Shown here: in pieces, positions 10,937-35,678 of the stretch
How the letters are laid out: every line of letters starts with the position of its first letter
How positions within the stretch are numbered: position 1 is the stretch's first letter
NCBI GenBank assembly: GCA_013373595.1
Contig: JABXHO010000141.1
Location: forward strand, 1 to 35,678
Source: Flavobacteriales bacterium
GTDB taxonomy: Bacteria; Bacteroidota; Bacteroidia; Flavobacteriales_D; Crocinitomicaceae
Length of the DNA: 35,678 nt
Direction of reading: 5' to 3'
The notes under the pieces: model-generated
Database searches by the model: none
Told to the model about the DNA's origin: nothing
Seen by the model: the letters and a program-made list of their open reading frames with translations, nothing else
Position numbers and translations under genes: made by a program

Positions 10937-11009
10937 TGTCCTATGGTGTAACTGGCAACACGTCGGTTTTTGGTACCGAAGAGTCTAGGTTCGAGCCCTA
11001 GTGGGACAA
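10937..11009 (+). tRNA. tRNA-Gln (anticodon TTG)
   Basis: The 73-nt cloverleaf is readable by eye. The acceptor stem is TGTCCTA (10937-10943) with TGGGACA (11002-11008), including one G-U pair, and A11009 is the discriminator base. The T arm is CTAGG-TTCGAGC-CCTAG. The anticodon arm is TCGGT-TTTTGGT-ACCGA, giving anticodon TTG for glutamine. The CCA end is not encoded (CAG follows). It is a single tRNA with its own promoter and a terminator directly behind it. Its 3' end is repeated at 11160-11172. Confidence 0.95.
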
Positions 11010-11012
11010 CAG

Positions 11013-11085: not shown

Positions 11086-11208
11086 GGGCTCGAAAGAGCC
11101 TAACTTGAGCTATGCGGACTGGATGGTCCGCGCTCTGCGCCTTCGGAAATATATTTCCTCTAGTGGGACAACGAAAAGCCTTGTAATCATTTGATTATGA
11201 AGCTTTTT
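11086..11208 (+). other. Hairpin-rich stretch ending in a copy of the tRNA-Gln 3' end and a terminator-like stem
   Basis: This stretch has no open frame of note but contains a string of short perfect stems. GGCTC-GAAA-GAGCC (11087-11100) has a GNRA loop, GCGGAC/GTCCGC lies at 11114-11131, and GGAAATATATTTCC (11145-11158) is a perfect palindrome. The 13-nt tRNA-Gln 3' sequence CTAGTGGGACAAC follows at 11160-11172. A stem AAAAGC...GCTTTTT (11174-11208) with TAATCA/TGATTA inside comes next. It could be an attachment-site remnant, or a small structured RNA with its own terminator; I cannot decide between them. The remaining sequence to 11384 is A/T-rich with nothing recognisable. Confidence 0.45.
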
Positions 11209-32042: not shown

Positions 32043-32666
32043 ATGACGGAAGAATGGAAAAAAAGATGGGATGATCGCTACCAAGAAAAGGCGTACGCCT
32101 ATGGAGTAGAGCCAAATGATTTTTTCAAACATCAAATCAAACAACTCCAAGAAGGACAGATCTTGTTTGGAGCAGAAGGCGAAGGACGAAATGCTGTTTA
32201 TGCAGCTCAACTCGGTTGGAAGGTCGAAGCATTTGACATTAGTACTGAAGGACAGAAAAAAGCGCTTCATCTTGCTAAAGAAAACAATGTTTCCATCGAC
32301 TACCACGTAGGGTTTCTACCCGAATTAGATTTCACAGACGAACAGTTTGATGCCATTGCCTTGATTTACGCACATTTCCCACCTCCAGTTCGTTCCGAAT
32401 ACCACCAGATTCTCAACCAGAAATTAAAATCGGGCGGAACGATTATTTTCGAAGCATTTAGCAAAAAACACCTTGAATACCGCGAACGAAATCCTAAAGT
32501 AGGCGGACCTGCAAACATCGAAGGATTGTTCTCTTTGGAAGACATTAAGCGTGACTTCCCTGATTACGACATCGAACTACTGGAAGAAACAGAAGTAGAA
32601 TTAAACGAAGGATTGTACCATAACGGTACCGGATCTGTTATTCGCTTTGTGGGACGAAAACGCTAA
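32043..32666 (+). CDS. Class I SAM-dependent methyltransferase
   Basis: A 207-residue methyltransferase of the TehB/thiopurine-methyltransferase-like group. The N terminus EEWKKRWDDRYQEKAYAYGV is typical of these proteins. The AdoMet-binding motif I is EGEGRNAVYAAQLGWKVEAF, with the acidic end of strand 2 in FDIS; motif post-II is LDFTDEQFDAIALIYAHFPP, and a late GGTIIFEAF strand follows. The acceptor is unknown; tellurite, thiol compounds or small metabolites are known for relatives. It is a single gene with an A-rich leader. Confidence 0.9.
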   Translation: MTEEWKKRWDDRYQEKAYAYGVEPNDFFKHQIKQLQEGQILFGAEGEGRNAVYAAQLGWKVEAFDISTEGQKKALHLAKENNVSIDYHVGFLPELDFTDEQFDAIALIYAHFPPPVRSEYHQILNQKLKSGGTIIFEAFSKKHLEYRERNPKVGGPANIEGLFSLEDIKRDFPDYDIELLEETEVELNEGLYHNGTGSVIRFVGRKR

Positions 32667-32736
32667 TCCGTCGCTTTAGGAAAACGAATTGTACACAATA
32701 ATCCAACCACAACACGATTTCTACCTCCTTTCCGAA

Positions 32737-32979
32737 ATGCTTATTTCGCTGATTGGAGCCATCCTCCTACTCGCAATTTGGTCGGCTGTGCAACGGTATT
32801 TCAAACATCAACTCTCGCATGAAATTTCGATCAAGCGTGTAAAGAGAGGATTCAAAACACTACTCAAAAATGAGATAACAAAAAAGCCCACGATTTCTCG
32901 AGGGCTTTTGTTTGTGGTGATACTCGGTTACGATAATTATCGAAACGAACCAAGGACACAAAACACTACTCAAAAATGA
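32737..32979 (+). CDS. Possible small membrane protein disrupted by repeat DNA
   Basis: A short frame (about 80 residues from the ATG at 32737). The start MLISLIGAILLLAIWSAVQR forms one good membrane helix, followed by a basic stretch (HEISIKRVKRGFK). From 32854 on it simply reads through the 106-bp tandem repeat, so the native C terminus may have been lost when the repeat arrived. It may also be a chance frame. Confidence 0.25.
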   Translation: MLISLIGAILLLAIWSAVQRYFKHQLSHEISIKRVKRGFKTLLKNEITKKPTISRGLLFVVILGYDNYRNEPRTQNTTQK

Positions 32980-33064
32980 GACAACAAAAAAAGCCCATGA
33001 TTTCTCAAGGGCTTTTGTCTGTGGTGATACTCGGTTCCGACAGCTATCGAAACGATCCAAGAGC
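32854..33064. repeat. Structured 106-bp tandem repeat, two copies
   Basis: Copy 1 starts at 32854 and copy 2 at 32960; the match fades near 33064. Each unit carries, in order, a small CTCA-AAAA-TGAG hairpin, a terminator-like stem AAAAGCCC/GGGCTTTT flanked by A and T runs, the phrase GTGGTGATACTCGGTT, and the palindrome CGATAGCTATCG or a variant. Related copies lie at the window end (35552-35678). The stem variants CGA/TCG (copy 1) and TGA/TCA (copy 2) are a paired change. The terminator-like stem could serve genes on either strand. Confidence 0.9.
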
Positions 33065-33300
33065 ACATGGATTTTCAGCGCATCCCGTAAAGGAATCCTT
33101 TATCACTTGAAAGCCTTTCAGAATAAGAGAATGGGAGATTTCGGACAACATCACCCAAAAGTCCACTTTTCTACGATTTTGTGCTGAATTGTACACTTTG
33201 ATGTTTACTCCCAAAAAAGTGCCGTGGAAACCCCGTGGATATTTCCAAGCTCAATCTCCGCAATGGGGTGAATTGTTCCTTCTATCCTTGAAAATCCGTT

Positions 33301-33408
33301 ATGGAAAAAGGTAAAGCATTTGCTATAACGGATGAAAAGGGTGAAACAGCTCCGAAAGGTGCAGAAATTGAACCTAAATACCCATCAACCTTTTTTTATA
33401 ACACTTAA
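33301..33408 (+). CDS. Possible 35-residue protein upstream of the recombinase fragment
   Basis: ATG to TAA frame coding MEKGKAFAITDEKGETAPKG then AEIEPKYPSTFFYNT. The composition is protein-like (balanced charges, one aromatic cluster), and it ends 12 bp before the recombinase start. I recognise no family. It may be a small gene or the tail of a broken one. The rest of 33065-33300 shows nothing recognisable. Confidence 0.25.
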   Translation: MEKGKAFAITDEKGETAPKGAEIEPKYPSTFFYNT

Positions 33409-33419
33409 ATGATTGTAAT

Positions 33420-33716
33420 ATGGAAAAGAAAGTAAATGCAGTGGTCTTTTGTCGGGTCTCAACTATCGACCAGTCTTATGAACGACAAGTTAATGACCTA
33501 AAGAAAATTGCCAAGAGATTGTCATTTGATGTTGTTGGAGTGATTACTGAAAAGGTCTCAAGAGCAAAGTCTAATGACGAACGTGCAGGGGTGCAAGAGT
33601 TTCTCGAAGGAGCAATGAAAGGCAAATTTCAAAAAGTAGTCGTTACTGAGGTGTCAAGATTAGGATGTGGAGCTAAAAAGAACAAGGAAAAAGTATGTTA
33701 CAAGAATGCGAAATGA
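33420..33716 (+). pseudogene. Serine recombinase (resolvase) N-terminal fragment
   Basis: 98 residues matching the catalytic domain of serine recombinases. The nucleophile lies in VVFCRVSTIDQSYERQVNDL (serine at residue 14), with SRAKSNDERAGVQEFLEGA and KVVVTEVSRLG following as in resolvases. After SRLG the match stops: the frame degenerates (CGAKKNKEKVCYKNAK) and ends, whereas a complete resolvase continues for at least 80 more residues with a DNA-binding helix-turn-helix. The active site is present, but the dimerisation helix and DNA-binding domain are missing, so it is probably inactive. Confidence 0.85.
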
Positions 33717-33831
33717 ATTTGGTGATAACGCCAACTTCTTCACTGGTCATAAATCAGAAAGAGTGGATAAAAAGCACTACTACGATGACAGCGAAATCTT
33801 TGAGAAAGTGAAGACGCTTGCATTGTGGTAG
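33661..33831 (+). pseudogene. Possible C-terminal remnant of a tyrosine recombinase
   Basis: In the +1 frame relative to the resolvase fragment, the sequence reads RTRKKYVTRMRNEFGDNANF then FTGHKSERVDKKHYYDD then SEIFEKVKTLALW and a stop. The first ATG is at 33706. The spacing of GHK and HYY resembles box II of tyrosine recombinases (LGH... and the nucleophilic tyrosine), and the short tail after it fits too. This is pattern recognition only; the upstream catalytic region is absent. Confidence 0.4.
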
Positions 33832-33855
33832 TGAATAGAAGTTATCACTAAAAAA

Positions 33856-35370
33856 CTACTGTCCGAGTAATTTTGCTTCTTTCAACGAAATTTTGCTCTC
33901 AGGATATAGAAGTTTTAGGTACTTCTTTAACACTTTCTTATACTCCCGTGATTCTTTTGGCACCTCATGCACCTCATACTCGTTATCTCTTCTGTACAAG
34001 ACTCCAGTAGTGGATATATTGTACCCACCACTATGAAAAAATGGATTTCCACTTCCCATTACATACATTCCATCATTATCCCTTATTGAGAAAGTAAAAT
34101 TTCTTGGCGTATGGAAATATCGCCTACTTTCTATTATTTCTCCATCGAATTTTTGATATGATATAAAAAGCCCTTTTGGAAAACCTAATTCATAGTTTTG
34201 CACCGTTGCGAGGAATCCATCAGGATTGTAAAATTGCCATTTACCATGTTTCAAACCATTCTTGAACTGTCCAGAAATAGCAAGAGTGCTATCAGGATAA
34301 TAATATTTCCAACTACCATTCTCTGGAGCAACAGGGTGAGCTGAATCAGAATAATTGTAGTAATACCACCCATCCCCTGAAAAAGCTTGGAAGTTCGGGA
34401 TTCTATACTTCCAACCATTTACTGGAATACCATTTTGCACAGAGCCGATAACCAAGGTATCTTCTCTATTAGAATATGAATACCCTTCTATAACGTCTTC
34501 GTATGTTAGAATTAACGTTCCACTAAAAGATGAATCTAATTCTTTGTTTAGATACGCATTAATTTCATGATACGGATTTCCAATTATCTCTGGTGACAAG
34601 AGACTGGACAAGCAAGATATTTGTGGATAAAAGTCGCTATCTCTAAAATTTGAATTAGCTGGAGGATACCAGTCTTTCCAATCATTGGTATGGTACAGCG
34701 ATGGAATCTCCTTTAATCTATCAAGGGTAAGTATAGAGTATGAGAAAAAGTAAAAGATGTTGCCCATTGCAAGACGTTCCATGTTGGGGAAGGCCTCCAT
34801 GTGAACAGATAAATTGTCTCCGACTTGAGCTTCAGTCAACCCTTCAAACTTTAAAAATGGGTTCAACCAATCCTCATTAATTGCTTGTCCTTCAAACCTG
34901 ATAGAACTGAGCGTTTGGTTCAGTACCAATTCTTCATACATATTCCATTCATTCAAATGAAGAATAAAGTTCGGGTATCCTACTATCGAAAACTCTTTTA
35001 ATTGCGGTAGATACAAGGAGTTCAGGATTTCAAACGTGTCCAAATCAAAAGCGTATGTTGAAGAATATAAGTCTCTTAATGAGATTCGCAATTTTGTGAT
35101 TTGCTCAGGTGAACAAGTAAACGACTCGTCAATGGAATGACTTGAAATAGTGTATGTTTTCCAATCAAAACCGAAAGGCTCACAATTATCTCCTTTTCTG
35201 TCGGTTACAAAAGAATAAACTAGCAGTGAATCCTGATTTCCTCCAACAACTTCTATAGCAACACTCAATTCTAACTCACTATTCGTGTCCAAAGGACAAG
35301 AATCATAGTCCCATTGAGCATGGGATTCAGATGTAATCAAAATAAAAATGAGAAGCAGTCGAATATTCAT
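33856..35370 (-). CDS. Secreted LRR-like/MORN-like repeat protein
   Basis: About 504 residues from the ATG at 35370; the frame opens at a TTG at 35397, but the signal peptide is MNIRLLLIFILITSESHAQ. The N-terminal half has leucine-rich-repeat-like spacing (LPQLKEFSIVGYPNFILHLN, EELVLNQTLSSIRFEGQ, FPNMERLAMGNIF). The C-terminal half has MORN/YwqK-like units (NGSWKYYYPDSTLAISGQF, KNGLKHGKWQFYNPDGFLA, ELGFPKGLFISYQKFDGEI). It is probably periplasmic or surface-exposed. MORN-like repeat proteins of this kind are sometimes annotated as toxin-antitoxin YwqK-like, but no toxin is adjacent. It is bracketed by copies of the structured repeat. Confidence 0.75.
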   Translation of the reverse strand: MNIRLLLIFILITSESHAQWDYDSCPLDTNSELELSVAIEVVGGNQDSLLVYSFVTDRKGDNCEPFGFDWKTYTISSHSIDESFTCSPEQITKLRISLRDLYSSTYAFDLDTFEILNSLYLPQLKEFSIVGYPNFILHLNEWNMYEELVLNQTLSSIRFEGQAINEDWLNPFLKFEGLTEAQVGDNLSVHMEAFPNMERLAMGNIFYFFSYSILTLDRLKEIPSLYHTNDWKDWYPPANSNFRDSDFYPQISCLSSLLSPEIIGNPYHEINAYLNKELDSSFSGTLILTYEDVIEGYSYSNREDTLVIGSVQNGIPVNGWKYRIPNFQAFSGDGWYYYNYSDSAHPVAPENGSWKYYYPDSTLAISGQFKNGLKHGKWQFYNPDGFLATVQNYELGFPKGLFISYQKFDGEIIESRRYFHTPRNFTFSIRDNDGMYVMGSGNPFFHSGGYNISTTGVLYRRDNEYEVHEVPKESREYKKVLKKYLKLLYPESKISLKEAKLLGQ

Positions 35371-35492
35371 AACATCAAAATAACCCAATTTTCTCAATTC
35401 GTTTCAACTGACCGAGCAAACTGAAAAACAACCTACTATTTGACTTTAAAAACCCCAAAAGTCCACTCCAATTCCCAACTTAGTCCACTCCA

Positions 35493-35678
35493 CAAAAATC
35501 GTCCAAAAACGAAAAAACCCTCAACAGTACTACTGCTAAGGGTTTCGTGAAGTGGTGATACTCGGTTCCGATAGCTATCGAAACGAACTAAGGACACAAA
35601 ACACTACTCAAAAATGAGACAACAAAAAAAGCCCATGATTTCTCAAGGGCTTTTGTCTGTGGTGATACTCGGTTCCGA
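35493..35678. repeat. Structured repeat, further copies running off the window end
   Basis: A hairpin AAACCCT...AGGGTTT (about 35514-35554) is followed by GTGGTGATACTCGGTTCCGA, the palindrome CGATAGCTATCG (35569-35580), and a second unit from 35598. That unit has the CTCA/TGAG hairpin, the AAAAGCCC/GGGCTTTT stem and GTGGTGATACTCGGTTCCGA, cut by the window end. The second unit is almost identical to copy 2 at 32960. The first hairpin has a different sequence from the others but the same architecture. The region 35371-35492 shows nothing else. Confidence 0.88.

Follow-up and report, generated by a model that had tools for sequence, protein, structure and literature searches.

In Escherichia coli, the 178-bp repeats of tyrT (rtT RNA) are tandem units behind a tRNA gene, each of which has a tRNA 3' end; we know of no nuclease in these repeats and of no tRNA segment in them that is replaced by a palindrome. 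Tyrosine-recombinase islands at the 3' ends of tRNA genes, including tycheposons, restore the 3' half of the gene and displace the old one, and group I introns in tRNA genes can be accompanied by homing endonucleases, the nuclease gene entering near the anticodon loop. Furthermore, the GIY-YIG nuclease SegB of phage T6 is reported to cut a locus with tRNA genes and thereby to drive its tandem amplification by homologous recombination (PMC13096335).

In this study, we have analysed a stretch of 35,678 nucleotides (hereafter the window; contig C121 of its genome), which holds a repeat array near its end. This array exhibits some features of the cassettes described below: namely, a partial tRNA copy, a palindrome replacing a tRNA segment, and a terminator behind. 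No GIY-YIG ORF was found within the window array, while one is present in an array on contig C43 of the same genome. On balance, we favor the reading that the units in the window are nuclease-less members of a homing-type cassette, which would enter tRNA genes and restore the tRNA with its own 3' half.

Partial tRNA-Phe copies in the window

The repeat in the window is an array of partial copies of the tRNA-Phe 3' end, in which the T-loop is interrupted by a palindrome and each copy is followed by a terminator. A first-pass annotation had described a structured repeat, in which a terminator-like stem and a palindrome keep a fixed order, and this is borne out by the copies in the window; what it missed was the identity of the unit with the tRNA-Phe 3' end and its terminator, and also the GIY-YIG genes in sister arrays. 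Upon checking the sequence, two units of 107 nt were found at 32847-33060 together with further copies at the window end (Table 1), and GTGGTGATACTCGGTT was counted exactly four times in the window, as against an average of 0.16 in shuffles with up to three mismatches. The unit on the minus strand is composed of the 3' part of tRNA-Phe (i.e., variable loop, T-arm, and acceptor strand) with the palindrome in its T-loop, and then the terminator. When genome contigs were scanned for the exact pattern, a single record was hit (L066, a contig of a Crocinitomicaceae MAG), where the same words as in the window unit adjoin an intact tRNA-Phe; a similar scan of viral contigs gave two matches, neither of which had a tRNA-like context by eye. 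Also, a genuine tRNA-Phe followed by a terminator and then by one or two broken copies was found in G032, G004, G022, and G012.

Table 1. Positions of the tRNA-derived copies, terminators, and intervening ORFs in the window
Feature	Position	Strand	Remark
Palindrome GGAAATATATTTCC and last 14 nt of tRNA-Gln (one mismatch), then terminator-like sequence	11145..11172	+	148 nt behind the tRNA-Gln gene (10937-11010); second case inside the window
Terminator-like hairpin GCCCTCGAGAAATCGTGGGC and spacer behind copy 1	32847..32913	-	
Broken tRNA-Phe 3' copy, variable loop to acceptor	32914..32960	-	T-loop split by CGATAATTATCG palindrome
Terminator-like hairpin and T-run behind copy 2, GCCCTTGAGAAATCATGGGC	32985..33020	-	Closely similar hairpin comes after genuine tRNA-Phe in G032 (L037)
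Broken tRNA-Phe 3' copy, anticodon loop (33078) to acceptor end (33021)	33021..33078	-	T-loop split by CGACAGCTATCG palindrome; matches tRNA-Phe of L066 at 33049-33078 and 33021-33034
Truncated serine-recombinase N-terminal domain between both copy sets	33420..33716	+	Pfam PF00239, E=4.4e-14; breaks off after about 98 codons
513-aa ORF between both copy sets	33856..35397	-	Weak MORN_2 match, below cut-off
Terminator of a different kind behind copy 35552..35598	35500..35551	-	Resembles, by eye, that behind genuine tRNA-Phe of G017 (L108)
Broken tRNA-Phe 3' copy with CGATAGCTATCG palindrome	35552..35598	-	
Further unit: terminator and start of next broken copy, ending at contig end	35591..35678	-	

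The window contig terminates inside a tRNA-Phe copy, and its last 127 nt (35552-35678) are a repeat. Since exactly 127 nt is the size expected of an assembler k-mer overlap, more units of the array are probably missing from the assembly. Another contig of the genome, C2, opens with the 5' part of tRNA-Phe and continues with a divergent type III pantothenate kinase gene, which adjoins tRNA-Phe also in G022 and G004. Given this beginning of C2 and the repeated copy at the end of C121, the window array probably lies directly behind tRNA-Phe, and the two contigs would be separated by a part of the array that is missing from the assembly. Provided that the contigs join in this way, the copy at 35552..35598 would be nearer to the tRNA gene. 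A tblastn search of the window and of the first 6 kb of C2 detected no trace of a GIY-YIG gene; indeed, none of the four GIY-YIG matches in the genome is on C121 or C2. An Rfam scan of 32600-35678 gave four matches up to E=5, all of which were sub-threshold.

The 2.5 kb between the two sets of copies, including a recombinase fragment, raises the idea that the copies are attachment-site remnants of tycheposon-like tyrosine-recombinase islands in tRNA-Phe, with 33079-35551 as the cargo. The copy at 33021-33078 indeed extends to the anticodon loop, and in the genome G198 tails are located 825 and 2426 nt behind tRNA-Phe. A Pfam scan of the two ORFs at 33420-33716 and 33856-35397, however, hit no tyrosine recombinase or integrase, one of them being a serine-resolvase fragment; an intact tRNA end is expected of such remnants, yet the three readable copies in the window carry the T-loop palindrome, and the 107-nt spacing leaves no room for cargo. 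We thus regard this explanation as improbable. As regards the homing-type cassette favored above, it counts against it that the segment 33079-35551, recombinase fragment included, might just as well be what is left of an ordinary integration event.

The first-pass annotation had also suggested a REP/BIME-like element or a structured transcript, an idea that it would have given up if only a few copies were present in the genome, and had proposed looking for a REP-associated transposase. In the genome-wide search, the whole 107-nt unit was above the chance level solely on the window contig, other matches being at the chance level, and it is confined to the one array. The palindrome core CCGATAGCTATCGG is dispersed at 23 places in the genome with up to one mismatch (control, 0), the window array accounting for one of them and the C43 array for three, and a single match to a Y1 transposase exists; but this gene is surrounded by a different, AGGATTnnnAATCCT-type palindrome family, and the 3.5 kb read around it contains no CCGATAGCTATCGG at up to three mismatches. 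Spreading of the window units as REP/BIME elements by a RAYT transposase is hence hardly probable at all: it is refuted for the unit as a whole, a judgement that does not extend to the palindrome core alone. As a separate observation, the Y1_Tnp (RAYT-like) gene at L201 (G000:C162:8500-12000) lies amid ten AGGATTnnnAATCCT-type palindromes, and has the look of a true REP/BIME locus that is not connected with the array of tRNA copies.

Copies behind other tRNA genes

In the genome of the window, copies of the own 3' end were found downstream of four tRNA genes (Phe, Leu(CAA), Ser(GCT), and Gln) out of 23, namely 22 surveyed genes plus Phe; three low-scoring matches (L231-L233) were left out, and some of the 22 had little downstream sequence (1 nt in L222). 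Single tail copies stand behind each of tRNA-Gln and tRNA-Ser. Behind tRNA-Leu(CAA) on C43, an array of three copies was read, in all of which the T-loop contains a CCGATAGCTATCGG-type palindrome and a terminator is present; a GIY-YIG ORF of 98 codons is located between the second and third copies, its stop codon being inside the palindrome. Both in this array and in G329, ORF-less mini-units share an array with an ORF-bearing unit.

Partial tail copies on the same strand were noticed at 12 of 93 tRNA-Phe places in the family, and controls with the reverse complement and with reversed words gave none. A 13th tail match among these places (L144) is a second complete tRNA-Phe gene and not a partial copy; in this survey, L117 and L136 are the same gene, and L143, which has no tRNA by motif, is outside the 93. 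We also noticed in G441 (L374) a tRNA-Phe copy in which the D-arm and the T-loop are both replaced by palindromes and the anticodon arm is kept. In G116, furthermore, TCCGTCAGCCGACGGA occurs four times (L371, C13:106-495) and twice (L372, C11:38225-38364) with a period of 124-125 nt; these repeats are near contig ends, with no tRNA in the stretch read, and are perhaps another such array.

GIY-YIG nuclease genes behind tRNA genes

When the first 80 small GIY-YIG genes listed from 100 genomes of the family were inspected with their flanks, 24 were found to follow a tRNA on the same strand at a distance of up to 500 nt, which was 43-77 nt for 17 of these genes. In contrast, none of 11 controls of UvrC size was behind a tRNA within 500 nt, where UvrC size is defined by length (593-624 aa) and not by family search, and one control has only 35 nt upstream. 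The tRNAs preceding the 24 nucleases were those for Met (10), Val (4), Phe (3), Leu (2), Ser (2), and Ala, Asn, and Asp (one each), with two of the three Phe-linked nucleases being units of one array (L261 and L183 in G150). A tail copy of the same tRNA was present further downstream in 17 of the 24 loci, in 16 of which it was behind the ORF, and no tail copy was found on the opposite strand at the 24 loci; the other seven nucleases have no visible tail copy. In 33 of 36 close cases, a T-run is placed between the tRNA and the ORF. The order of the unit is tRNA, terminator, nuclease ORF, broken tRNA copy, and terminator, often in tandem. The remaining 56 of the 80 genes are not behind a tRNA; 44 of these constitute a separate clade with no adjoining tRNA in the flanks read, which looks like a different gene and may have another role.

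In an alignment of nine nucleases, Y, Y, G, R, and E are invariant, which we take to be the residues with catalytic roles in GIY-YIG nucleases; the proteins thus appear to keep what is expected of an active enzyme. A search of solved structures with one nuclease gave UPF0213 as the nearest relative (E 0.0006) and, weakly, SLX1 (E 0.006), while the four nucleases tried against NCBIfam gave no match above the cut-off. Relatives of one Met-type query nuclease were not found in phage, plasmid, and viral collections, and hence no carrier was found.

Alternatively, the broken copy might be an RNA that mimics tRNA and serves as a sponge or guide for a tRNA-specific nuclease toxin, the pair forming a toxin with an RNA antitoxin. 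Pairing of the nucleases with the Met and Val isotypes, the acceptor and T stems retained in the copies, the covarying hairpin, and the ORF directly behind the tRNA with the T-run between would all suit such a pair; ORF-less units are nonetheless common, the nearest solved relatives are UPF0213 and SLX1, and GIY-YIG enzymes known to us act on DNA. We therefore consider an RNA mimic very improbable.

Isotype specificity and spread of the nucleases

A tree was made of 82 proteins including 25 rows labelled with an isotype, in which many forks are open given short proteins. The isotype changes nine times on this tree, where the least possible number is seven, the shuffled mean is 14.2, and none of 200 shuffles was as low. 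This clustering is carried by Met (8 genera; nine of ten rows in one clade), Val (four rows, two genera), and Ser (two rows, two genera), and the Met- and Val-linked nucleases form clades that match the tRNA isotype across genera. The three Leu-linked rows required three changes and hence do not cluster, and the three Phe-linked rows required two, which is weak clustering (50 of 500 shuffles as low); isotype specificity is not supported by this tree for Leu or for Phe, the isotype of the window itself. The genus changes 17 times (13 genera; least possible, 12), a number without shuffling, and the comparison with genus is weaker than the raw numbers suggest.

With a Met-type nuclease as the query, matches were obtained in 54 of 395 genomes of the class. 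Among the 30 Met-type loci listed, 22 had a tRNA at most 1.5 kb before them, which was in every case Met(CAT) according to ARAGORN; this label does not separate initiator from elongator Met, and Ile2 may be hidden in it. Among the other eight, G309 has an array of ten 457-nt units behind tRNA-Met, and in G231 and G364 a 3' half of tRNA-Met from the anticodon arm stands, by eye, directly before the ORF without the 5' half. In G569, tRNA-Met is on the other side of the ORF, and in G574 a broken copy is behind the ORF with no tRNA in reach; in G558 and G501 the sequence before the ORF is shorter than 90 nt, and in G256 the 1500 nt upstream contain no tRNA. In the genus g22, moreover, the array is present in G150 and absent from G157 (L177) and G133 (L179), where the downstream sequence, collinear with that of G150, begins about 820 nt closer to the tRNA; at 65-69% identity this is an approximate empty site, and G182 gives no such comparison.

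These distributions bear on another explanation, in which the 3' end of a tRNA and its terminator are duplicated in tandem by slippage or unequal recombination, with the nuclease gene as a passenger. In its favor, the stretches read in the window, G004, G012, G162, G155, and G102 have arrays or single copies but no ORF, and the arrangement resembles the tyrT repeats of E. coli. We nevertheless regard duplication as unlikely; it leaves unexplained why GIY-YIG genes are behind tRNAs in Met- and Val-specific clades and why a hairpin replaces the same place of the tRNA in many families, and adjacent copies may bear different terminators, as at 35500-35551 and 32985-33020 in the window and in G022.

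Hairpins in the broken copies

The replaced segment and the position of the hairpin differ among isotypes, namely next to the anticodon loop in Met and in the T-loop in Phe. By eye, TCCCGAT...ATCGGGA takes the place of the anticodon arm in the copies of Leu(CAA) of G020 and of Val(TAC) of G128 and G161. In the Met copies, TCCG..CGGA replaces the strand behind the anticodon loop together with the variable loop, and in the Phe copy of G150 a part of the T-loop is replaced by TCCGCCGCGGCGGA. In the two surveys together, 28 of 35 first copies had, within 50 nt, a hairpin with a stem of 6 bp or more, as against 208 of 1400 random windows.

The first-pass annotation had inferred from paired changes between the copies in the window that the fold is under selection. 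In the terminator stem, one pair is indeed changed on both sides, being C-G in copy 1 and T-A in copy 2, and near the window end the stem has the same sequence as in copy 2. The three variants of the palindrome exist as quoted, and copy 2 carries a C-A mismatch; the change between AATT and AGCT, however, concerns the two central bases and is no test of pairing because these bases would sit in the loop of a hairpin. A single compensatory pair in the window is too little for the claim; in a wider test, paired changes were found again in the Met-type copies of relatives. For these, 28 of 31 Met copies were aligned; left out were L297 (first copy split by a second hairpin in the T-loop), L388 (hairpin elsewhere), and L292 (no hairpin). 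Within the 6-bp hairpin, 97.6% of the cells are paired, a percentage inflated by the choice of rows with a hairpin there, and two-sided changes are observed in five of the six pairs. The covariation score was 0.280 as against 0.142 in shuffles (none of 500 as high), and all slid versions scored lower; the further pair types, seven as against 6.3, were not unusual (130 of 500 as high). These paired changes are no proof of selection, since template switching during the repair of imperfect palindromes would be a mutational route to the same pattern.

As regards the origin of the hairpin, the palindrome core was found by eye in the loops of terminator-like hairpins in four of 16 printed contexts. 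At L084, L086, L091, and L092, CCGATAGCTATCGG and its variants are seen by eye within such loops. The palindrome TCCGTCAGCTGACGGA is scattered over 25 places in G129 and, to a lesser degree, in G154, G161, and G116 (eight each), while it is restricted to the cassettes in G051 and G144. In at least some Met-type units, therefore, the hairpin travels with the cassette; elsewhere, a local palindrome family may have been its source.

Discussion

The observed anatomy of the units and their association with tRNA genes can be accommodated in a homing-type mechanism, whose cutting, homing, and use of the hairpin are putative. Namely, the nuclease of the cassette would cut one particular tRNA gene at or near the site that the hairpin interrupts in the copy, and recombination repair would insert a unit beginning with an intact tRNA 3' half, so that the tRNA survives and its old 3' part is shifted downstream. 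The hairpin would make the displaced copy unlike the target and unfit to fold as a tRNA, and the restored tRNA would be open to repeated hits, giving rise to arrays; SegB of phage T6 is a precedent for tandem amplification after a GIY-YIG cut at a tRNA locus (PMC13096335). A unit begins with a working tRNA 3' half and ends with a broken one; this layout, together with the starts at the anticodon arm, fits a cassette that enters where the tRNA gene has been cut and replaces its 3' half. The window units would then be ORF-less members in tRNA-Phe, non-autonomous or decayed, comparable to the mini-units of C43 and G329. Because the ORF stands right behind the tRNA, it is likely to be expressed at a low level by read-through from the tRNA.

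Several points run counter to homing. Among them are the lack of a GIY-YIG gene in the window array, the seven tRNA-linked nucleases with no visible tail copy, the 56 genes not behind a tRNA, the Leu- and Phe-linked nucleases, and the hairpin position that varies with the isotype. The restored tRNA would also retain the supposed target site, so that self-cutting would need to be tolerated, and the palindrome is also dispersed in some genomes, at 23 places in that of the window and at 25 in G129. Alternatively, the nuclease may cut the hairpin itself, because its relative SLX1 is named a structure-specific endonuclease in the structure record.

Beyond the window, it is conceivable, although we propose this only tentatively, that unnamed minimal mobile elements are widespread in Bacteroidia: cassettes of about 70-460 nt with a matching GIY-YIG nuclease and one tRNA target, repair of the tRNA by a carried 3' half and not by splicing, a displaced half in which a covarying hairpin replaces a tRNA segment so that it would be neither target nor tRNA, and nuclease-less arrays as non-autonomous offspring. 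If so, tRNA genes would host not only integrase islands and introns but also parasites of another kind, which are very small, consisting of an about 80-aa nuclease with half a tRNA, and whose target is readable from the preceding tRNA. Such elements would explain tiny GIY-YIG families behind tRNAs and the broken tRNA copies there, as well as some contig breaks at tRNAs in draft genomes, and would provide a set of natural nucleases with predicted targets.

Comparison with known systems

In the open-access literature, where titles and the starts of abstracts of the top matches were covered, no description of tRNA-linked GIY-YIG units in Bacteroidetes was found. SegB, a free-standing GIY-YIG homing endonuclease of T-even phages, is similar in that a GIY-YIG gene is beside a tRNA; it differs in that it belongs to phages and a full-length tRNA is amplified (PMC13096335), and it is not known to have a tail-terminator unit or a hairpin-broken copy. 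The units described here, unlike those of SegB, are chromosomal and carry a replacement 3' half of the tRNA. REP/BIME elements with RAYT are likewise palindromic, structured, and repeated, but the window unit is not dispersed as a whole. As in tyrT/rtT, the window array is made of tandem units holding a tRNA 3' end, and no match to the Rfam family RtT was found in 32600-35678 at E up to 5. In comparison with tyrosine-recombinase islands, the segment read contains no integrase, the units are as short as about 70-460 nt, and a hairpin is present in the displaced copy; in comparison with group I introns, the tRNA is apparently restored here by a duplicated 3' half and not by splicing.
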